IMG/VR virus record: IMGVR_UViG_3300006919_000199
Span: 1 to 34,080 of that record
DNA length: 34,080 nucleotides
Source: a virus
Direction: 5' to 3' (one strand)
How positions within the stretch are numbered: the first letter of the stretch is position 1; each line of letters opens with the position of its first letter. Shown here one piece after another: positions 3,165 to 32,926 of the stretch. The position numbers were made by a program, and so were the translations under genes. Under the pieces are notes generated by a model. The model ran no database searches, was not told where the DNA came from, and saw only the letters and a program-made list of their open reading frames with translations.

Positions 3165-3538
3165 ACAAGACTCGACTTGATGTGTATGCCGCCGTCGAGT
3201 TCGCGCAGGTGCCTCACTAAAGACGAGCCGTCTTCTCTGCGTAGGTCAGCAATCAGGCGTCCGTACTTGCCTCGTGCAAGCTCACGTTCGCCGTCCGTGG
3301 CTAGCCATAGCGGAAAGCCATCGCCTATCCATTCCTCTACGGCGATCTTGGCTTTAAGCCCCTTCTCTTTTTCCTCGCCCCGGACTTCCCAGATATTGAG
3401 GTCCGCAAGACGTATTCTGTCCGTTACTGTGGGTAGTCCAAACGCCTTTCCGGCCAGTATGATTTGACAGTCAAAAGTATCGCCGTCAATCACGCGCATG
3501 ACTCGGCATGGTAAATACCACGGTGCTGTATGTAGCAT
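3161..3538 (-). CDS. staphylococcal-nuclease-like (thermonuclease) protein
   Basis: 125 residues with GGAG before the ATG. The SNase fold signature is present: VIDGDTFDC (16-24) for metal binding, DRIRLADLN (40-48) holding the first catalytic Arg (R41) and Asp46, Glu51 in the general-base position with a two-residue insertion, and GRLIADL with Arg94 as the second catalytic Arg. It lacks a signal peptide, so it should act in the cytoplasm on DNA or RNA. Activity is likely given the kept residues but is not proven. Possible roles are host DNA breakdown or nucleotide recycling. Confidence 0.8.
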   Translation of the reverse strand: MLHTAPWYLPCRVMRVIDGDTFDCQIILAGKAFGLPTVTDRIRLADLNIWEVRGEEKEKGLKAKIAVEEWIGDGFPLWLATDGERELARGKYGRLIADLRREDGSSLVRHLRELDGGIHIKSSLV

Positions 3539-3548
3539 TGTGATCTCC

Positions 3549-3944
3549 TCAAGAGTTTAATTTTCTTTTTACGGGTTCCTTGCTGCCCAAGACGAGCGAC
3601 AAGCACTCGTCTTTTTCAGACCAGCACAGAATCGCGCCCTTTTGTCCATCGGACTCATCCAGTGCCGCTTGTTCGGACTCGTCGTTGATGATCGAGACGT
3701 GAACCAACATCATGCTTAGCAGGGAATAGACAATGCCGTACAGCCCAGACCGGATTTCTGGCGTAGCGTCGCTGAAGAACGCCACGCAACGCCCACATAC
3801 CGTTGTGCCGATGAGCCAGCCGTCACGCTCCCCCATATCGGTGTATCCACTGGCGCAGCGTTCATCCCTATCATGACAAATCGCGCAACAGGCATCGTCG
3901 GGTTTGACACTGGACGCTAGCTTAAAGTTTCTTGCGTTTAGCAT
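3549..3944 (-). CDS. hypothetical protein with Cys-rich N-terminal half
   Basis: 131 residues. Cys residues in CCAICHDRDERC and CGRC (within the first 55 residues) could bind one zinc. Then comes a hydrophobic helix (GIVYSLLSMMLVHVSII), which may be buried or membrane-associated, and a C-terminal acidic/basic tail. It overlaps the upstream zinc-ribbon gene by 23 bases. No family recognised. Confidence 0.55.
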   Translation of the reverse strand: MLNARNFKLASSVKPDDACCAICHDRDERCASGYTDMGERDGWLIGTTVCGRCVAFFSDATPEIRSGLYGIVYSLLSMMLVHVSIINDESEQAALDESDGQKGAILCWSEKDECLSLVLGSKEPVKRKLNS

Positions 3945-4044
3945 GGTATTTCACGTCACCTTGGCAAACATAGAACTGGGCGTAATACGGCCCCTCAAGT
4001 TTATGAATAGCCCCGCAATCATCACACTTGATGGTTTCGGCCAT
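3922..4044 (-). CDS. 40-residue zinc-ribbon-like protein
   Basis: Starts at ATG 4044 (MAETIKCDDCGAIHKLEG) 5 bases after the stop of the upstream gene. A longer frame exists upstream but reads through the neighbouring gene in another frame. One CxxC knuckle and a single further Cys (YVCQGD) suggest a half zinc ribbon or a dimeric zinc site. The C-terminus is basic (KYHAKRKKL). Confidence 0.5.
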   Translation of the reverse strand: MAETIKCDDCGAIHKLEGPYYAQFYVCQGDVKYHAKRKKL

Positions 4045-4049
4045 CGTCG

Positions 4050-4391
4050 TCAGTTCACGCCGCCATGATCTTTTTCGACGCAGGAAATCATGAGGGAGGC
4101 AACTGCCGCTTTCATGAACGCGCACGTCATGCGCGAGTCGGTCGTATTGTCCGGTTCTTGGGTCCGTTCGAGCAGGTCCGCGATGCTCGGGCATACCCTT
4201 ATCAGTAAGCTAAGCGTCTCGGTGGAATTGAATTCGAGACAGTCGCCAATCTGGCCCAAGTATTCGTGGAACTGCACGACCAGCAAGCGCATACTTTCTT
4301 CGACGCGAGGCGTTACCTTCATGCCATCTAAGATAGTTGGGTTTTCTTCTAAGAGCGCTCTGAGCTGTATCGCTTCTTTGCTATTTTTCAT
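4050..4391 (-). CDS. hypothetical helical protein
   Basis: 113 residues, mainly amphipathic helices (EAIQLRALLEENPTILDGM, VEESMRLLVVQFHEYLG). No motif recognised. The start overlaps the end of the DUF6197-like gene by 11 bases, so it is part of the same leftward operon. Confidence 0.55.
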   Translation of the reverse strand: MKNSKEAIQLRALLEENPTILDGMKVTPRVEESMRLLVVQFHEYLGQIGDCLEFNSTETLSLLIRVCPSIADLLERTQEPDNTTDSRMTCAFMKAAVASLMISCVEKDHGGVN

Positions 4392-4716
4392 GTTCCGCTA
4401 GCCTCACTATTTTAGCTACGTCTGAGCCTGTTATTTCAGGGCGGTCTGAGTATCGGCTGATGCTGCACGATCCTTCATGCCGCTTGACGCTTTTACGTAT
4501 TCGTCGCAAGCACTCATGCCTCATATGTCCGGGCACGAGACGTTCTACCGCGCCGTGTACATCTAAGCCAGATACATTTGGATGATTAGCTGACACCGGG
4601 CGTCCTTTTTCATCTCTCGCATATGCACCCTTGACCAAGTGGCCGTCTATGTAGTCGGCTACGTCAGTTAATGCACGGCGAATGTCCGCCGAGGTGTACA
4701 AGTAGCATACAGGCAT
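4381..4716 (-). CDS. DUF6197-like protein (first copy)
   Basis: 111 residues. The order ADIRRALTDVADYIDG, KGAYARDEKGRPV, LDVHGAVERL and ISRYSDRPEITGSDVAKIVRLAEH matches the small actinobacterial and phage family DUF6197 (helix; hydrophobic-Ala-x-Asp-xx-Gly-Arg; Gly-Ala helix; N/S-D-x-P then a terminal helix). Function unknown. A second member lies at 7200-7652. The ATG has no clear Shine-Dalgarno and faces the divergent metallophosphoesterase promoter. Confidence 0.55.
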   Translation of the reverse strand: MPVCYLYTSADIRRALTDVADYIDGHLVKGAYARDEKGRPVSANHPNVSGLDVHGAVERLVPGHMRHECLRRIRKSVKRHEGSCSISRYSDRPEITGSDVAKIVRLAEHEK

Positions 4717-4778
4717 CTTGGGTCAAGATTTTCCGACGTGATTGTGCGTAACGCGAAATGAAAAAACTAACTCATATA

Positions 4779-4795
4779 TGTTAATATCCGTCATA
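4779..4795 (+). promoter_or_regulatory. extended -10 promoter for a leaderless metallophosphoesterase gene
   Basis: TGT-TAATAT with the hexamer at 4782-4787, ending 7 bases before the ATG at 4795. This is the same geometry as the promoter at 2747-2763. No Shine-Dalgarno precedes the ATG, so a leaderless transcript is likely. Confidence 0.55.
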
Positions 4796-5865
4796 TGGCA
4801 GACCGTCCTGACAAATGGTGCAAGCAGTCGTTGATTGATTGGGGCGTTGATACAACGCACGAGATCGGGAGGTTCCCGCAAAGCCGCGAGGTTCCGGCAA
4901 CCACGGCGCGGAAATTATTTGGCACGTTTTCACGATACATAGATCAGGTCAAAGTTGCCTACGCGATCAAATACGGCGCACTGCCTGAGATTGAACTTGT
5001 TGGCGGTAGCGCGGTAATCGAAGAACCCGAAGCACCTAGCCTACAAGTTGACGAGAAGCCGCCAACGGATCTGCGTGACGACGTTGTTGTGGTCTTGCCT
5101 GACACGCACTTCCCTTTCCATGACCCCGAGGCCGTAGAAGTTGCCATGAGAATCGTCGAGCACTACCGGCCCGGACGAGTTGTTCACTTAGGCGACCTCC
5201 TGGATTGTGGGCCGTTTTCATCTCACGGCGGAAACACTATCGACGAGGTACGTAGCTACGATTTCGTCGAAATGGAAATCAAGCCAGCCCGCGAAATGAT
5301 TAAACGCGGCTTGAAGGCGTGTGGGCACTGGGTGCAATCCGACGGCAATCACGAATACCGCGTGCAACGCTCGTGCATCAAGCACGGCATACCCGGCGTA
5401 GAGCTGTACAATGCCACTCAACCAGAAAAACTGCTGTTTGACGGTATACCGGACGCGAGATTCACACACATTCCGTACATTAAGTCCGTCAAGGATTCGT
5501 CGCATGGTTACTGGATAACTCCTAACTTGCTAGCGGTGCATGGGTGGAGTTTTTCCCAGAACGCTGCCGCAACGCACCTGCGATACGCCAAATCGGTATC
5601 GGTAGTTTACGGTCATTGTCATCGGGTTGACCTTGCAATGGAGCGCTGTCCAATGACCGGGCGCATTATACAGGCTTTCTGCCCCGGTACGTTGTCGCTA
5701 TTACAACCAATCTACTTCACTGACGGTAGACCTACATCGTGGGTGCAGGGCGTATCGGTAATTTTCATCTCTGAGAACAACCCGGAGGATTGGACGCAGT
5801 ATCAAATACAGATACATGATGGACGTGCGATCTTACCTGACGGCACGGCAATCACAGCGTCCTGA
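4795..5865 (+). CDS. calcineurin-like metallophosphoesterase
   Basis: 356 residues. Residues 1-60 form an N-terminal helical part resembling a small DNA-binding or homeodomain-like segment, then an acidic linker. The catalytic domain has every metallophosphoesterase block: LPDTHFPFHD (D103, H105), HLGDLLD (131-137), DGNHEYR (183-189), VHGWS (248-252) and GHCHR (273-277). These bind two metal ions and hydrolyse phosphoesters. The substrate (nucleic acid, nucleotide or protein phosphate) is unknown. It is one of two plus-strand genes in the left arm, with its own promoter, and overlaps the convergent gene 5852-6292 by 14 bases. Confidence 0.88.
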   Translation: MADRPDKWCKQSLIDWGVDTTHEIGRFPQSREVPATTARKLFGTFSRYIDQVKVAYAIKYGALPEIELVGGSAVIEEPEAPSLQVDEKPPTDLRDDVVVVLPDTHFPFHDPEAVEVAMRIVEHYRPGRVVHLGDLLDCGPFSSHGGNTIDEVRSYDFVEMEIKPAREMIKRGLKACGHWVQSDGNHEYRVQRSCIKHGIPGVELYNATQPEKLLFDGIPDARFTHIPYIKSVKDSSHGYWITPNLLAVHGWSFSQNAAATHLRYAKSVSVVYGHCHRVDLAMERCPMTGRIIQAFCPGTLSLLQPIYFTDGRPTSWVQGVSVIFISENNPEDWTQYQIQIHDGRAILPDGTAITAS

Positions 5866-6292
5866 TAATGTCGGTAGCGTCCTCTAGGGACTCCGCAATG
5901 AATGTTGAGGGTACACGTACCCAAGCAGAGTGTGCCCACGGACCTTCATTGTCGATGACCGTTACGATTGGGATATTGCGGCACTTGGCATAGCCCAACT
6001 CGACAAGGCTACCCAAAGAGGCCGAGTTAGCCCAACGGGTGTTGAGAAGGAGCACGTCGGCACGGTCAATATCGTAGAGATCGCGTGCGATTACCGACTT
6101 GTCATCGCTGAAAAGATTGTCGTATCCGTCCATGAGGCGGTCGCCGTCAGCGTGCATTGAAATCTTCCCTCTCAATGGATCTATGCACTCGAAGTCGGTG
6201 TATTCCAGTAGTAGTGCCGCGTGATTACGCCAAGCTGTTGCTTGCGAGACAGTCAGCCCGTTTATCGGACCAGCAAGATAAACCCTACGCAT
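5852..6292 (-). CDS. nucleoside 2-deoxyribosyltransferase-like protein
   Basis: 146 residues, ATG with AGGGG upstream. It begins VYLAGPING (4-12), the nucleotide-binding start of the deoxyribosyltransferase/DUF4406 fold. It continues with DPLRGK and a strand ADVLLLNTRW, and has SLGSLVELGYA (93-103), where Glu is expected to be the catalytic nucleophile in this family. Likely reaction: transfer or hydrolysis of the glycosidic bond of (deoxy)nucleosides or nucleotides, i.e. pool editing or salvage. A role in supplying or removing modified nucleotides is inference only. Confidence 0.7.
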   Translation of the reverse strand: MRRVYLAGPINGLTVSQATAWRNHAALLLEYTDFECIDPLRGKISMHADGDRLMDGYDNLFSDDKSVIARDLYDIDRADVLLLNTRWANSASLGSLVELGYAKCRNIPIVTVIDNEGPWAHSAWVRVPSTFIAESLEDATDIIRTL

Positions 6293-6300
6293 ATTTTCCC

Positions 6301-6531
6301 CTATATCTTTTTAACAGTCTGCATCCATCGGTCATCTGGGCACGGTGCAACGCGGTAGGCGTAGTGAAAATTACGACTCTTGTCGTAGTCACAACGCCAC
6401 GTTTCTACATCTTCGTCCATGACAGGCTCGTGCTCGAAGAAGAATACGCGCCCGTGCTTGTCAATCGCTAGGAACTTGGCCCATGCCGGTTTCCACACTT
6501 TCACCGTCATGTATTCGCGTGAATCGCCCAT
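6301..6531 (-). CDS. hypothetical protein
   Basis: 76 residues, rich in aromatic residues (KVWKPAWAKFLAIDKHGRVFFFEHEP), compatible with a small beta-sheet protein. An alternative ATG lies at 6510 (MTVKVW); neither has a clear Shine-Dalgarno. It starts just after the stop of a putative membrane peptide (6539-6622). Confidence 0.5.
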   Translation of the reverse strand: MGDSREYMTVKVWKPAWAKFLAIDKHGRVFFFEHEPVMDEDVETWRCDYDKSRNFHYAYRVAPCPDDRWMQTVKKI

Positions 6532-6538
6532 TGCGAAA

Positions 6539-6622
6539 TCAACCGGCTAGGTAATATGCGATTGCAAGACCCGCAACCATCGACAACGTAAACAGGTTCA
6601 GGAGAAACCCGCTACGTTGCAA
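6539..6622 (-). CDS. putative 27-residue membrane peptide
   Basis: Starts at TTG 6622, shortly after the stop of 6635-6862 and in the same frame. It encodes LQRSGFLLNLFTLSMVAG then LAIAYYLAG: one hydrophobic helix with a positive N-terminus. It fills an otherwise empty gap between two operon genes. There is no clear Shine-Dalgarno, so this is tentative. Confidence 0.3.
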   Translation of the reverse strand: MQRSGFLLNLFTLSMVAGLAIAYYLAG

Positions 6623-6634
6623 CGACAGAGACTT

Positions 6635-6862
6635 TCAAGCGATAGATTCGATTTTCTCGATAAGCGCGTAGATCAAGTTGAGACGCTGGTTCATGTGATC
6701 GCGTAACTGGTCAATCATGCCGACAATCTCGTTCGCATTGGCCTCGGTTGATTGTGCGACTCGTGCCGACAACGCCTCTAGGCGCTGCTGCACCCCATCG
6801 AGATTAGTCAGCTCTGCCGACAGATTGTTCATGGCATTTTGTACCTGTGGTGATACGGACAT
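6635..6862 (-). CDS. coiled-coil protein
   Basis: 75 residues, ATG preceded by AGAGG at a good distance. Almost the whole sequence is a heptad-patterned helix (MNNLSAELTNLDGVQQRLEAL, then IVGMIDQLRDHMNQRLNLIYALIEKI). Probably a small trimeric or dimeric coiled coil. Function unknown. Confidence 0.6.
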   Translation of the reverse strand: MSVSPQVQNAMNNLSAELTNLDGVQQRLEALSARVAQSTEANANEIVGMIDQLRDHMNQRLNLIYALIEKIESIA

Positions 6863-13816: not shown

Positions 13817-13835
13817 GTATGTACAGCAAAAAAAA

Positions 13836-13909
13836 TAGCCCCAGCAGGACTCGAACCTGCGACCTACGGATTATGAGTCCGCAGCTCTAACCGACTGAGC
13901 TATGGGGCT
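13836..13909 (-). tRNA. tRNA with CAT anticodon (Met or Ile2)
   Basis: Full cloverleaf on the minus strand: acceptor AGCCCCA/TGGGGCT with discriminator A, D-stem GCTC/GAGC, anticodon stem GCGGA/TCCGT with loop CTCATAA (anticodon CAT), T-arm GCAGG-TTCGAGT-CCTGC. The 1-72 pair is formed, so not an initiator tRNA. Whether it is elongator Met or lysidine-modified Ile2 cannot be told. CCA is not encoded; a T-run follows directly. Confidence 0.92.
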
Positions 13910-14117
13910 ATTTGTCATCAAGCGCGACGCCGAACAGATCATCAGCGTTCATCATTCGTTGCACGATGAAGCGTCGGCCATCGGATTCTACGTGAGGCAT
14001 CATCTCGTACAGGCCAGTCAAAGCCATAGACGAGGCCCCTTGGTAGTCGCCTATAGCGGCTAGCTTCTTAGCTGAAGAAAGGTAGTATTCGATAGTGCTT
14101 GAGTCTGGTTTTTTCAT
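13908..14117 (-). CDS. hypothetical protein
   Basis: 69 residues from ATG 14117 with GGTGA upstream. Helical (TIEYYLSSAKKLAAIGDYQG, ASSMALTGLYEMM), in a TPR-like pattern of a single repeat. Its last two bases overlap the tRNA gene, so the tRNA is cut from the same transcript. Confidence 0.55.
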   Translation of the reverse strand: MKKPDSSTIEYYLSSAKKLAAIGDYQGASSMALTGLYEMMPHVESDGRRFIVQRMMNADDLFGVALDDK

Positions 14118-14464: not shown

Positions 14465-14549
14465 TGGTGCCAGAGGCGGGACTCGAACCCGCAAGGCCGA
14501 AGCCGGGGGATTTTAAGTCCCCTGCGTATGCCAGTTCCGCCACTCTGGC
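14465..14549 (-). tRNA. tRNA-Leu (TAA anticodon)
   Basis: Minus strand, 85 bases with encoded CCA. Acceptor GCCAGAG/CTCTGGC, discriminator A; anticodon stem GGGGA/TCCCC with loop CTTAAAA (anticodon TAA); long variable arm CGGCTTCGGCC typical of Leu; T-arm GCGGG-TTCGAGT-CCCGC. It reads UUA and UUG codons. Confidence 0.93.
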
Positions 14550-20000: not shown

Positions 20001-20552
20001 ATGATACAAGACAAGCAAATCGTCAGTAAGATCAGCGGGTTCGACATGATGACGTGGGGCGAATTACGTACCTACGAACGCAACGACCTGAAAGAAGAAA
20101 ACAACCGCGACGTGACCAAGCTCAAGAACGCGATTGTGAATGACGGGTTCACAACGCCATTCTTCATCTGGTCGAACCATCGCTACGTGCTCGACGGAAC
20201 TGGACGTTGCCTAGCCCTAGAGGAACTAGAAAGCGAGGGCTTTGTCGTGCCCGAATTACCCGTCATACACATTGACGCGGACAACAAAGAGGCCGCAAAG
20301 CGCATCGTGCTCATGATTTCGTCTCAGCACGGGGTCATTACGCAAGAGAGCTTGGACAGGTTTATTGAGGACATCGACGCAATAGGCATCGACGATTTCA
20401 TTAACCTACCGGGGCTAGATTACGGGATGCCGGAACTTCCCGACGACGACGACGACGATCTCCTTGACGACTTCGAGAGTGCCGAGGAGGACGAGGACGC
20501 GATAATCACCTGCCCGCATTGCGGTAAAGATTTTGAGTACAATCCCCGATGA
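20001..20552 (+). CDS. ParB-like domain protein with C-terminal zinc pair
   Basis: 183 residues. ParB/sulfiredoxin-fold core: MMTWGELRTYERNDL (16-30), KLKNAIVNDGFTTPFFIW, YVLDGTGRCLALEEL (62-76; the G-x-x-R motif) and a helical part to about 140. A run of acidic residues follows, then CPHCGKDFEY (171-180). Stand-alone ParB-like proteins of this shape often neighbour DNA methyltransferases and may guide modification or bind nucleotides. No clear Shine-Dalgarno; the ATG follows the structured segment. Confidence 0.72.
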   Translation: MIQDKQIVSKISGFDMMTWGELRTYERNDLKEENNRDVTKLKNAIVNDGFTTPFFIWSNHRYVLDGTGRCLALEELESEGFVVPELPVIHIDADNKEAAKRIVLMISSQHGVITQESLDRFIEDIDAIGIDDFINLPGLDYGMPELPDDDDDDLLDDFESAEEDEDAIITCPHCGKDFEYNPR

Positions 20553-21489
20553 TGTTGCACGGCGCGGACGCGATATGTTCGTGCAAAGGTGGGCGGACAT
20601 AGCAACCACCGATACGGCCCTGCTACTAAGCGGCGGCGTAGATTCAATGACCGCGTTATTCGCGGCGTTGGAGTGCGGCCATAAGCCTCGCTGCTATACA
20701 TTCTACCTGAGCGGATACAAGAGCACTGATCTAGCAGCCGCCCGCAAAGTCACCGATTACTTTGGCTTAGAGCTAATCGAAGTAGGAATACCATCGACAC
20801 TCGGCGACCTAATACGCGACACATTCGCGGTGATCGACGAGATAAACTGGGAATACTATCTAGGAGTCAGGAAAGTCACGATTCAGACGATGCACCCATT
20901 GCTTTACACAACTAAAGCGATAGAGGAGCGCAAGGTCGTAGCTGGGCTAGGCGGCGGCAAGTTAAGTCTTGACTCACGCAAAGCATCAATTGAAATTTAC
21001 CACGGGGGCGAAGAAGCGGCTGACGACTTACGATGTGACAGGTATGCCGTAGATGACGACTCGTTGCAGTATCAGCGGACCTATCAACGAGCAGGCATAG
21101 AATATTTGGACTTTTATGCGTTCACGGACGCATACAGGTGGGTGCGGGAAATTCCGGTAATTGCCTTCAACCAACGCAAAGCGAAGTGGGGATTGGTTAA
21201 ACCCTTTCTCGACTATTGGAAAAAGAGGCCGATGTATCGAGCGCCAGCACCATACCAAATAGCATCAGGCTTGAGGAGGTTCCACGACCGCTTACTTAAA
21301 ACGAGATGGAACACGAAAGGCTGGGTGCAAGTTCAAAAAGTCTATCAGCAAATGGCGAAAGAGCGCGGCGTCAGATTCGGTGCTAAATACTACTTCCCTG
21401 TACAGATAGGACCGTACAGGCATGAAGTTCATGTAGCGTCGCCCAGAATCAGGGTTTTCTACGACGCCAGCACTCTTGCGGAGTTTTGA
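20533..21489 (+). CDS. asparagine-synthetase-like PP-loop ATPase
   Basis: 318 residues from a TTG at 20533 (or ATG 20575). The PP-loop LLLSGGVDSMTALFAAL (31-47) activates a substrate by adenylation. The next strand CYTFYLSG, then AARKVTDYFGLELIEVGIP and a later AGLGGGKL stretch, follow the synthetase domain of asparagine synthetase B. The N-terminal glutaminase domain is absent, so ammonia or an amine must come from elsewhere. QueC's four Cys are absent. It sits between a ParB-like gene and a DNA methyltransferase, which suggests a base-modification step; an amide-forming role on a carboxylate is inferred. Confidence 0.68.
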   Translation: MSTIPDDVARRGRDMFVQRWADIATTDTALLLSGGVDSMTALFAALECGHKPRCYTFYLSGYKSTDLAAARKVTDYFGLELIEVGIPSTLGDLIRDTFAVIDEINWEYYLGVRKVTIQTMHPLLYTTKAIEERKVVAGLGGGKLSLDSRKASIEIYHGGEEAADDLRCDRYAVDDDSLQYQRTYQRAGIEYLDFYAFTDAYRWVREIPVIAFNQRKAKWGLVKPFLDYWKKRPMYRAPAPYQIASGLRRFHDRLLKTRWNTKGWVQVQKVYQQMAKERGVRFGAKYYFPVQIGPYRHEVHVASPRIRVFYDASTLAEF

Positions 21490-21950
21490 TGAACGACGTT
21501 AGCGTGCCCCTAGAGCTGAATCACGGCGTACTCGGCGTGTACAAGCCTTGGTATATGCGCCTAATGACTAATGGCGTGATCGGCTATGAAGCTACATTCC
21601 GTCTGAGGCTCTGTGGCAGGCGATTCCGCTCATACGAAGACTCAGCAACGCTGGAAGACATACCCTGCTTAGATCAACTAGCACACCCTGATCTAGAATT
21701 TCCTGTACATGGGGGCATTGACGACCGAGGCAGAGTTGCAGTTCTAGCCAACGATCAAGAATTTGAAATACCGACTACAGTCAAGAATATTGAGTTTCTT
21801 TTAATCACCGAAGTCTCTGACGTAGAAAGTCCAGCACTCTTGATGCAACTCTACTTGCGCGCCGTCAAAAACAAACTACCCCTATGGTTCCAGGGCTCGC
21901 TAGGGGGCAAAGACGGTCGTCTACTTACTTTCGGTTTCATCCCTGAATGA
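21489..21950 (+). CDS. unknown protein in the modification cassette
   Basis: 153 residues; start ATG overlaps the PP-loop stop (TGATG) and its stop overlaps the methyltransferase start (ATGA), so it is tightly coupled to both. Strand-rich (VLGVYKPWYMRLMTNGVIGY, ATFRLRLCGRRFRSYEDS, FLLITEVSDVESPALL). No motif recognised. Its place between the two enzymes suggests a part in the same pathway. Confidence 0.6.
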   Translation: MNDVSVPLELNHGVLGVYKPWYMRLMTNGVIGYEATFRLRLCGRRFRSYEDSATLEDIPCLDQLAHPDLEFPVHGGIDDRGRVAVLANDQEFEIPTTVKNIEFLLITEVSDVESPALLMQLYLRAVKNKLPLWFQGSLGGKDGRLLTFGFIPE

Positions 21951-22948
21951 AGCCCCCGTATGCAATCAAGTCGATGGCGGACTTACCTGAGCCGACTGGA
22001 CCAAAGGTCGTCTCGTTGTTTTCGGGTATGGGCGGCATGGACCTCGGGTTTCGATTTTGCGGCTACGACATTCTTTGGGCGAATGAGTTCGTGCGCCTAG
22101 CCGCTGAAACATACGCCTGCAATGACCGCAGAGCGATACTCGACACTCGGGACATACGGAAGATTGACGGACAAACCGACATCCTCAGCAAGATACCGAC
22201 GACTGAGGTAGATGTTCTGACCGGATCTCCGCCGTGTAAGAGCTATTCGGTTGCCGGATTATGCGAGGATGGCTGGGGCGTAAAGTCTCACTATTCTGGC
22301 GCGAAGAAGCAGCGGACAGACGATTTATTTCCTGAGTACGCACGGATCGTCAAAGAAGTTCGCCCTAAAGTCTTCGTAGCGGAGAATGTACCCGGACTCG
22401 CGGAACGAAAGTCCAGAGTTTTCTTCTCAGCTTACATGAGGCTTTTCCGCGAACTTGGCTACCGAGTCGAAGCAAAAATACTCGACGCACAATACCTCGG
22501 CGTTCCGCAAAAGCGACGCCGACTGTTTTTCATTGGCGTCCGCGACGACCTCGGCAAAAACCCAGTATGGCCCAAGCCGTTGCCTTACATTTATACGGTT
22601 CGAGATGCCATACCCTACGCAAAAAGAGTCCACGTACACGGCAAGGATAGGGCGAGCCGTATCTCGTGGCTACCGGCGGACAAGACGCCGATTCCAACAA
22701 TTACCGTAGCGCAGATACGCGCTGGTAAGAACGCAAAGAGTTTTTTCGGCAGCAACTTGAACATCCTCACCGACGACAACATTCGTAGGAAAATAACACC
22801 AGATGAGGCGAAGGCCCTTTCTACGATACCGGCGGATTTTAGGTTGACTGGCGGAACACAGGCACAGCTCGAAAGAGTAGCGAGGTGCGTTCCGCCAATG
22901 GTGGCGGAATCTATTGCGCGGAGGTTGTTGGAATATGTCTTTGGATAG
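21947..22948 (+). CDS. DNA C5-cytosine methyltransferase with Arg in motif X; candidate carboxymethyltransferase
   Basis: 333 residues. Motif I FSGMGGMDLGF (25-35); motif IV GSPPCKSYS (93-101) with catalytic Cys97; motif VI AENV (145-148); motif VIII QKRRRLFFIGVR (188-199); target-recognition region about 204-285; motif X RVARCVPPMVAESIARRLL (310-328). In normal enzymes motif X reads G-N-A/S-V-x-P; here Ala312-Arg313-Cys314 replaces it, so the conserved Asn that lines the SAM methyl pocket is Arg. In M.MpeI the engineered Asn-to-Lys change at this Asn lets the enzyme use carboxy-SAM. With a CmoA homologue directly downstream, carboxymethylation of cytosine is likely. Target sequence not predictable. 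Confidence 0.88.
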   Translation: MKPPYAIKSMADLPEPTGPKVVSLFSGMGGMDLGFRFCGYDILWANEFVRLAAETYACNDRRAILDTRDIRKIDGQTDILSKIPTTEVDVLTGSPPCKSYSVAGLCEDGWGVKSHYSGAKKQRTDDLFPEYARIVKEVRPKVFVAENVPGLAERKSRVFFSAYMRLFRELGYRVEAKILDAQYLGVPQKRRRLFFIGVRDDLGKNPVWPKPLPYIYTVRDAIPYAKRVHVHGKDRASRISWLPADKTPIPTITVAQIRAGKNAKSFFGSNLNILTDDNIRRKITPDEAKALSTIPADFRLTGGTQAQLERVARCVPPMVAESIARRLLEYVFG

Positions 22949-23642
22949 TCGCTATCATGTACCGGGTCGTGCGTGGAAGTTCGATCAATCGGTCACTGAT
23001 TGTTTCGATGATATGCTCGCACGCAGCATACCGGGCTTATCTGGGTTGCGCGAAATGGTTTCACTACTGACCCGTGTATACGCGCAAAAGTATTCGCTGT
23101 GCGTAGACCTTGGGTGTAGCACCGGAACGCAATGGGCGCACTATCACGATTCGTGGTCGCGGCCAGCCGGTTTTACATACGCAGGATACGACGAGTCGGG
23201 CAGTATGGTCACTGCGGCTAAGACGAAACTAAAAGGAAAGTGCGTTGAGTCGATTGAACGCCACGACCTGCGCTCTGGATTCCCCAGCGATTTGTATAGC
23301 GTCAGTGTGATTTGGGCGATCTTGACACTACAATTTATACCAGTCGAGCGCCGTAGGGGCATTATAGAAAACGCCTATGAATCACTAAACGATGGTGGGG
23401 CGTTCATTGTCGTTGAAAAATGCTTCGAGCATACCGACAACCCGTGGAAGTTTATCTACGAGATATACAAAAAGTCCAAAGGGTACACTGACGATCAGAT
23501 AAACAAGAAAGCGGCGGCACTGGAGAACGTGCTAGTACCGCTTCCGGCGAACGCAACGGTCGAAATGCTTGAAACGGCTGGATTCTACACGGAGTCTTTT
23601 TTTCAGGCATTAGGATTTAAGGGCTGGCTAGCCGTAAAATAG
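22935..23642 (+). CDS. CmoA-like enzyme (putative carboxy-SAM synthase)
   Basis: 235 residues from ATG 22935. Matches CmoA along its length: KFDQSVTDCFDDMLARSIPG (15-34), VDLGCSTGT (57-65; SAM site), ILTLQFIPVERR (129-140), LNDGGAFIVVEKCF (151-164), SKGYTDDQINKKAAALENVL (181-200), and the C-terminal SFFQALGFKGWLAVK. CmoA makes carboxy-SAM from SAM and prephenate for tRNA wobble U. By eye, the Arg199 that holds the carboxylate in E. coli CmoA is Ala193 here, with Lys191-Lys192 just before it. The product is therefore not certain. No CmoB gene is seen, so a tRNA role is less likely than supply to the adjacent DNA enzyme. Confidence 0.8.
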   Translation: MSLDSRYHVPGRAWKFDQSVTDCFDDMLARSIPGLSGLREMVSLLTRVYAQKYSLCVDLGCSTGTQWAHYHDSWSRPAGFTYAGYDESGSMVTAAKTKLKGKCVESIERHDLRSGFPSDLYSVSVIWAILTLQFIPVERRRGIIENAYESLNDGGAFIVVEKCFEHTDNPWKFIYEIYKKSKGYTDDQINKKAAALENVLVPLPANATVEMLETAGFYTESFFQALGFKGWLAVK

Positions 23643-31850: not shown

Positions 31851-31864
31851 CGGTGAAACAAATC

Positions 31865-31891
31865 GGCGCGGGGGCTAATCACCCCCGCGCC
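31865..31891 (+). terminator. terminator-like hairpin after the capsid gene
   Basis: Perfect 10-bp stem GGCGCGGGGG/CCCCCGCGCC with a 7-base loop. Followed by GTGATTTCA rather than a T-run, so probably a partial terminator or an RNA-stabilising hairpin that protects the capsid mRNA end. Confidence 0.55.
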
Positions 31892-31900
31892 GTGATTTCA

Positions 31901-32926
31901 ATGCAAACTGAATCAACACAGCAAAGCAATTTACCGTTAGCTAGGGCATATTGGCCCCTGCAAGGCACTAAGAACTACGGCGGCTTCATCGGTTACGGCA
32001 ACCTGCTCAAGTCACTTCAAAAGTGCATCGTGCCCGACCCAGACAGTGACATATATTTCACGTTGTGCGATCCGGCGAAGTATCGAGCCAGGTCAGACAA
32101 GCGCGTCAATATGTGCTTCACGATGTGGGAGCACGAGGAAGTACCGGAAAAGTACGTAGCCAATCTACGGCAAGCGGACGCTGTTGTAACTTGCTCCCAG
32201 TTCTGCAAACGGGTTTTCGAGGATATACTGGATTGCCCCGTATATTTTGTACCGCTTGCGATAGACGACCAGTTATTCAGTTATAAAAAACGGTCTAGGC
32301 CGCGAGGCAATAAACCGTTTAGGTGGCTATGGCTAAATGCGGCGGACCCGCGCAAAGGTTACGATCACCTAGCTAGGCTTTGGGAGAAGTTTTACTTCAA
32401 CGACCCAAGAGTCGAGCTGTACATGAAGACGACATCAAACGTCAAGGAACAGATCGTTACGCACGGCAACGTGACGTTCGACTCGCGTATTTTACCGCCC
32501 GACGAAATAGCCGCTCTCTATCATTCGGCTCACGGGTTTATTTATCTTTCTTGGGGTGAGGGCTTTGGCTACACGCTAGCCGAGGCCATGTCTACGGGAT
32601 TACCTTGCGTTGCTACCGAGCGCTCCGGCTACGTTGATTTCTTCAACTCAAGCAACGGCTATCCGGTGTCATATAAACTACACCGCGTAGCACGAGAGCT
32701 GTTCGGTTCCGATGGCGAAGATTACAGCAGGTCAAACGCACCGGACGGTAAATACTCGATTGCGATTGGCGATTCGCGCCAGTGCGTGAACTCGATGAAC
32801 ACGATTATGAGCAAGTACGGTCGTGCAATGAAAAAGGGTCTACACGCATCGCAAGGACTTAGAAAGCACTACAATATGCAAACGATGGCGCGTGCTATCA
32901 GCGACATATTCCAACTTTATAATTAG
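31901..32926 (+). CDS. GT4-type glycosyltransferase
   Basis: 341 residues from ATG 31901; a GTG at 31892 is possible. The GT-B fold is seen in WLWLNAADPRKGYDHLARLW (nucleotide-binding start of the second domain), HGFIYLSWGEGFGYTLAEAM (E-x7-E type donor site; Glu in EGFG and AEAM) and STGLPCVATERSG. The acceptor is unknown; coming right after the capsid it may glycosylate a virion protein or the host surface. It is also possible that it works on modified DNA bases, but it is far from that cassette. Confidence 0.8.
   Translation: MQTESTQQSNLPLARAYWPLQGTKNYGGFIGYGNLLKSLQKCIVPDPDSDIYFTLCDPAKYRARSDKRVNMCFTMWEHEEVPEKYVANLRQADAVVTCSQFCKRVFEDILDCPVYFVPLAIDDQLFSYKKRSRPRGNKPFRWLWLNAADPRKGYDHLARLWEKFYFNDPRVELYMKTTSNVKEQIVTHGNVTFDSRILPPDEIAALYHSAHGFIYLSWGEGFGYTLAEAMSTGLPCVATERSGYVDFFNSSNGYPVSYKLHRVARELFGSDGEDYSRSNAPDGKYSIAIGDSRQCVNSMNTIMSKYGRAMKKGLHASQGLRKHYNMQTMARAISDIFQLYN

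Follow-up and report, generated by a model that had tools for sequence, protein, structure and literature searches.

We identified in the window (the whole 34,080-base stretch of a virus record analyzed here) an operon that probably modifies the phage's own DNA by adding a carboxymethyl group to C5 of cytosine and then capping this group as an amide. The operon is composed of genes for a ParB-like protein, CmoY, ORF154, CmoX and CmoA, in this order and all in the same direction. Strong homology points to the first two steps, namely the predicted synthesis of carboxy-SAM (Cx-SAM) by CmoA and of 5-carboxymethylcytosine (5cxmC) by CmoX, and weaker homology suggests the third, the formation of an amide by CmoY. 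A sequence-only reading of this DNA had proposed, from Arg313 of CmoX and the neighboring CmoA, that the phage carboxymethylates cytosine at C5. This proposal holds in kind, based on homology to the characterized system of Synechococcus phage S-B43, but not as a first natural example, since that system was published in December 2025. The same reading took 5cxmC as the final mark and missed the ParB-like gene, the CmoY-type ligase and ORF154, which lie immediately upstream of CmoX. With a CmoY-type ligase encoded two genes upstream and virion DNA of S-B43 in which the glycine amide was detected and free 5cxmC was not (PMC12783734), 5cxmC is probably not the final mark. Because the ligase belongs to the same overlapping operon, the pathway probably passes through free 5cxmC and ends with an amide of it.

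The first gene of the operon (20001..20552, plus strand) encodes a ParB-like DNA-binding protein with the C-terminal zinc-knuckle CPHCGKDF; its first domain matched phrog_498 of PHROGs, annotated 'DNA methyltransferase' (1.2e-12), and the protein also matched the ParB-like phrog_620 (1.7e-9). It overlaps by 20 bases the gene of the CmoY-type ATP-dependent amide ligase (20533..21489, plus strand), which contains the synthetase domain of Asn synthetases. The ligase gene shares one base with ORF154 (21489..21950, plus strand), a small conserved ORF of 153 aa from the ATG at 21489 or 154 aa from the TTG at 21486, and ORF154 shares the four bases ATGA with the CmoX gene. CmoX (21947..22948, plus strand) is a predicted DNA cytosine C5-carboxymethyltransferase of 333 aa and is followed by a CmoA-type carboxy-SAM synthase of 235 aa (22935..23642, plus strand). 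The overlap between these last two genes is exactly 14 bases when CmoA starts at the ATG at 22935, as had been noticed from the sequence. The genes of CmoA, CmoX and CmoY are therefore found together in one neighborhood (20533-23642). Elsewhere in the window, a glycosyltransferase family 4-like gene (31853-32926; PF13692, PF20706 'GT4-conflict') directly follows the major capsid gene, and two minus-strand tRNA genes, Met(CAT) and Leu(TAA), are located at 13835-13910 and 14465-14549.

CmoX is a complete C5-cytosine methyltransferase, as first described (PF00145, 4.8e-57), and its best match in the PDB was 8YF3, the CmoX of S-B43 (SpCmoX; 8.2e-47). Its motif IV, SPPC, corresponds to residues 94-97 (22226..22237, plus strand), which aligned to S95-C98 of SpCmoX, and the codon of the catalytic Cys97 is found at 22235-22237. 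Motif X reads E309-R-V-A-R313-C-V-P-P, in agreement with the Ala312-Arg313-Cys314-Val-Pro-Pro reported earlier. The claim that Arg313 occupies the position of the family's motif X Asn was also confirmed: using both HMMER and MAFFT, this residue (codon AGG, 22883..22885, plus strand), the predicted carboxylate binder, aligned to Arg350 of SpCmoX; it also aligned to the motif X Asn of E. coli Dcm. The same position is Asn304 in M.HhaI (PMC12783734). All the Cx-SAM contacts named in that study are conserved in the alignment of the window CmoX (F25, E47, F48, D69, Cys97 and Arg313), and the first four of these, as well as the catalytic Cys, are invariant across the CmoX alignment. In the phylogeny, the window CmoX was nested inside the CmoX clade among Arg-type enzymes. 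Relative to the close relative IMGVR_UViG_3300017951_000052, its omega was 0.069 (Nei-Gojobori), and CmoX, CmoA and CmoY all evolve under purifying selection. PADLOC matches for the window corresponded to generic C5-methyltransferase models. The GC motif of SpCmoX is not transferable to the window CmoX, because the two enzymes are 33% identical and differ in their target-recognition region, and neither dinucleotide nor palindrome frequencies of the window hinted at the target motif (observed/expected of 1.11 for GC and 0.86 for GCGC).

The pathway that we propose relies on the enzymes of S-B43 described by Yang et al. (Nat Commun, December 2025), in which CmoA makes carboxy-SAM, SpCmoX carboxymethylates cytosine at C5 and CmoY ligates glycine to 5cxmC (PMC12783734). 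In the crystal structure 8YF3, Arg350 is positioned on the carboxylate; wild-type SpCmoX accepts Cx-SAM only and the R350N variant accepts neither donor (PMC12783734). We infer that the window enzymes act as their S-B43 homologues do. CmoA would convert SAM into carboxy-SAM, and CmoX would flip out a cytosine, with Cys97 attacking C6 and Arg313 holding the carboxylate of carboxy-SAM, and would move the carboxymethyl group to C5 to yield 5cxmC. The CmoY-type ligase would then adenylate the carboxylate of 5cxmC with ATP and couple an amine, and the resulting 5cxmC amide would hide the DNA from host nucleases. SpCmoX-treated DNA resisted HhaI (PMC12783734), and an anti-restriction role may by analogy be suggested for the window operon.

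The last step depends on a divergent ligase. The window CmoY matched the CmoY genes of phages PaBG, S-B43 and Y3 and the Asn_synthase domain of Pfam (6.7e-6), with no glutaminase domain, and the profile of the CmoY family matched AsnB (1CT9, 9e-14). Its AF2 model (pLDDT 86.5) found beta-lactam synthetase 1MC1 and AsnB as top Foldseek matches. The SGGVDS loop, D66, K114, R167, K218 and Q242 are retained. The enzyme presents Gln118 where the family has Glu in 81/85 sequences and Gly142 where the family has Asp in 82/85, and further changes were observed at positions 119, 143, 154, 215, 217 and 238. The Asp of position 142 aligns to the Asp of GEGSDE in AsnB; we looked in the literature for a catalytic function assigned to this Asp in the Asn synthetase loop and found nothing usable. 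Gln118 is common to the window CmoY and the ligases of the related loci L013 and L168. In the latter (L168:5190-8251), a ParB-like gene, the gene of the CmoY-like ligase and one for a radical SAM protein are found consecutively, and CmoX and CmoA are absent from the fetched stretch.

The loss of the nearly invariant Glu118 and Asp142 raises the possibility that CmoX and CmoA work, that the ligase is inactive or otherwise employed, and that 5cxmC is the final base after all, and many CmoX loci indeed lack a recognized ligase in the fetched stretch. We consider this unlikely: the ligase ORF is intact, overlaps its neighbors and evolves under purifying selection (omega 0.069, Nei-Gojobori, against the same relative), the model predicts an Asn-synthetase-type fold, and the virion DNA of S-B43 showed the amide only (PMC12783734). 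The ligase clade may thus use another amine or be inactive, and purifying selection disfavors inactivity. Since Gln118 and Gly142 are divergent and the gene is nevertheless under purifying selection, the amine joined by the window CmoY may not be glycine. More tentatively, it is possible that neither glycine nor ammonia but another amine is coupled to the carboxymethyl group by the ligase clade of the window, L006, L013 and perhaps L168, and that ORF154 assists the ligase in this clade specifically; if true, the product would be a cytosine hypermodification not yet described. ORF154 has an 83% identical homologue in L008 and a distant homologue at the equivalent site of L013 (E 0.003), and searches against Pfam, NCBIfam, PHROGs and phages yielded no match. 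Its AF2 model was unusable (pLDDT 32) and its synonymous sites were saturated relative to IMGVR_UViG_3300017951_000052 (Nei-Gojobori). The divergent ligase and ORF154 are concrete candidates for producing a new final base.

The gene following CmoX had been called a clear CmoA homologue, and our searches agree (TIGR00740, 9.6e-32; E. coli CmoA 4GEK, 1.8e-21). The window CmoA scored below the TIGR00740 equivalog cut-off (110.6 vs. 193.3 bits) and is, judging from its sequence, a divergent member of the family. It keeps Asp62, Gly64, Ser66, Asp89 and Glu164, which comprise SAM-site residues and the proposed base, and relative to E. coli CmoA it presents the substitutions Tyr39 to Leu, Asn90 to Glu, Asn132 to Ile and Arg199 to Ala. 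In an alignment of 172 sequences, position 199 of E. coli CmoA was Glu in 74/116 CmoX-linked CmoA, including the experimentally active SpCmoA, and Arg199 was kept in 53/56 CmoA without a nearby CmoX. Arg199, which contacts the carboxylate, is therefore not diagnostic for phage CmoA. We considered the loss of Arg199 as evidence against CmoA function and set it aside, as SpCmoA and most CmoX-linked CmoA also lack this residue. Leu at the position of Tyr39 is rare among the aligned CmoA. In the E. coli enzyme, both Tyr39 and Arg199 touch the cofactor (PMC3663124), and E. coli CmoA was enough for SpCmoX in vivo (PMC12783734); it could then be argued that the phage CmoA has lost the ability to make Cx-SAM and that CmoX draws on the host CmoA. 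This appears improbable, as CmoA has the lowest omega of the operon (0.053, Nei-Gojobori, against IMGVR_UViG_3300017951_000052) and most CmoX-linked CmoA, the proven SpCmoA included, lack Arg199.

The pairing of Arg313 with CmoA is not due to chance: among related C5-methyltransferases of GTDB, those with Arg have CmoA and those with Asn do not. Scanning GTDB with the CmoX profile, we found CmoA within 6 kb in 27/29 Arg loci and 0/27 Asn loci after leaving out 24 loci that could not be scored (Fisher p = 5.5e-14, a value that overstates independence, as Arg-type sequences served to build the query profile and the loci share ancestry). Both Arg loci without a nearby CmoA carry one elsewhere in the genome. 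Two members nested in the CmoX clade carry another residue, Asn in L258 and Leu in L019, and CmoA was not found in the genome or record of either, L019 being a 20-kb fragment. Scans of IMG/VR with single proteins returned one close relative only and alignment queries were needed to recover more; across these relatives, Arg was kept in 78/79 and CmoA was present in 70/79 within the fetched stretch.

A second, unrelated lineage presents the same pattern. In these GTPC-type C5-methyltransferases, the motif X GNSM is changed to GRAM or GRSM, and CmoA was found nearby in 6/7 scored Arg loci and in 0/71 Asn relatives (2.7e-8). For the seventh Arg locus, L335, a weak CmoA-like match (8.8e-12) was located in another part of the contig, inside a 1230-aa ORF, and no CmoA was found in the 32 kb of L336, a close Asn relative. 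This lineage, found in the present analysis, is a convergent repeat of the association, and the published search for CmoX, as described, would have missed it since SPPC was required there (PMC12783734). Together, the two independent lineages provide a simple predictive rule: a C5-methyltransferase whose motif X Asn is replaced by Arg goes with CmoA. The GTPC-type Arg enzymes (L188, L191, L193, L220, L224, L225, L229, L230, L242, L333-L335, L337-L339 and L370), presumed DNA carboxymethyltransferases, are often located near a CmoY-type ligase. CmoA classically acts in tRNA cmo5U, and the window CmoX has the C5-methyltransferase fold with all other motifs present, such that it might be an ordinary 5-methylcytosine methyltransferase tolerating Arg at motif X while CmoA serves tRNA. 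This is very improbable given that wild-type SpCmoX, with the same Arg, takes only Cx-SAM (PMC12783734) and that the association of Arg with CmoA occurs in two separate methyltransferase lineages.

We also observed CmoA in phage loci that lack CmoX. In 51/63 of these loci, CmoA adjoins a ParB-fused Rossmann-like protein (PHROG 5475); this group includes L099:3913-5502, within a cassette spanning about 3233-6693, together with some 50 other loci from the range L099-L167. No match to the CmoX profile was found in the 12 contigs of this group that were searched, which reach up to 104 kb. These loci are a candidate for a different carboxy-SAM-dependent modification.

Several known systems resemble parts of the window operon. 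The window ligase shares its fold and ATP-pyrophosphatase motif with asparagine synthetase B and beta-lactam synthetase but is 16-18% identical to them, lacks the glutaminase domain and has a DNA-borne carboxylate as its predicted substrate. The C5-methyltransferase M.MpeI N374K can use Cx-SAM because a basic residue occupies its motif X position (PMC12783734); in contrast to the window CmoX, this enzyme is engineered, carries Lys rather than Arg, is CG-specific and has no partner genes. Locus L013 presents the same order of ParB, ligase, small ORF, CmoX and CmoA, followed by the terminase, but an HNH gene separates CmoX from CmoA. Erwinia phage Y3 possesses the same enzymes with CmoX apart from the others; its CmoX (L004:22410-24539) is split precisely at the catalytic cysteine of PPC by an intein-like insert of 357 residues. 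Pseudomonas phage PaBG (KF147891, PaBG_00176-00180) encodes a ParB-like protein, a CmoX (39% identical), CmoA and the ligase in one stretch, but its order is ParB-X-A-ORF-Y, its ligase keeps the Asp and the Glu, and its small ORF (PaBG_00179) bears by eye no resemblance to ORF154.

The closest parallel to the overall pathway is S-B43, where, as in the window, a single cluster encodes a CmoX with SPPC and the motif X Arg, a CmoA and a ligase resembling Asn synthetase. In the published set, ParB-domain genes often lie close by (PMC12783734); this set comprises 5,615 CmoX candidates, collected from IMG/VR, UniProt and MGnify, that possess SPPC and the Arg (PMC12783734). The window CmoX possesses both features and may thus already be part of this set. 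In contrast to S-B43, where the order is A-Y-X, the window presents the order ParB-Y-ORF154-X-A, the additional ORF154, a CmoX of the 33% identity mentioned above and a ligase that is extended at its C-terminus and deviates at near-invariant residues. These comparisons suggest that the window cluster is very probably a further member of the system published in 2025, with an unusual capping enzyme, which would extend this system to a small HK97-type phage carrying a complete and compact operon.
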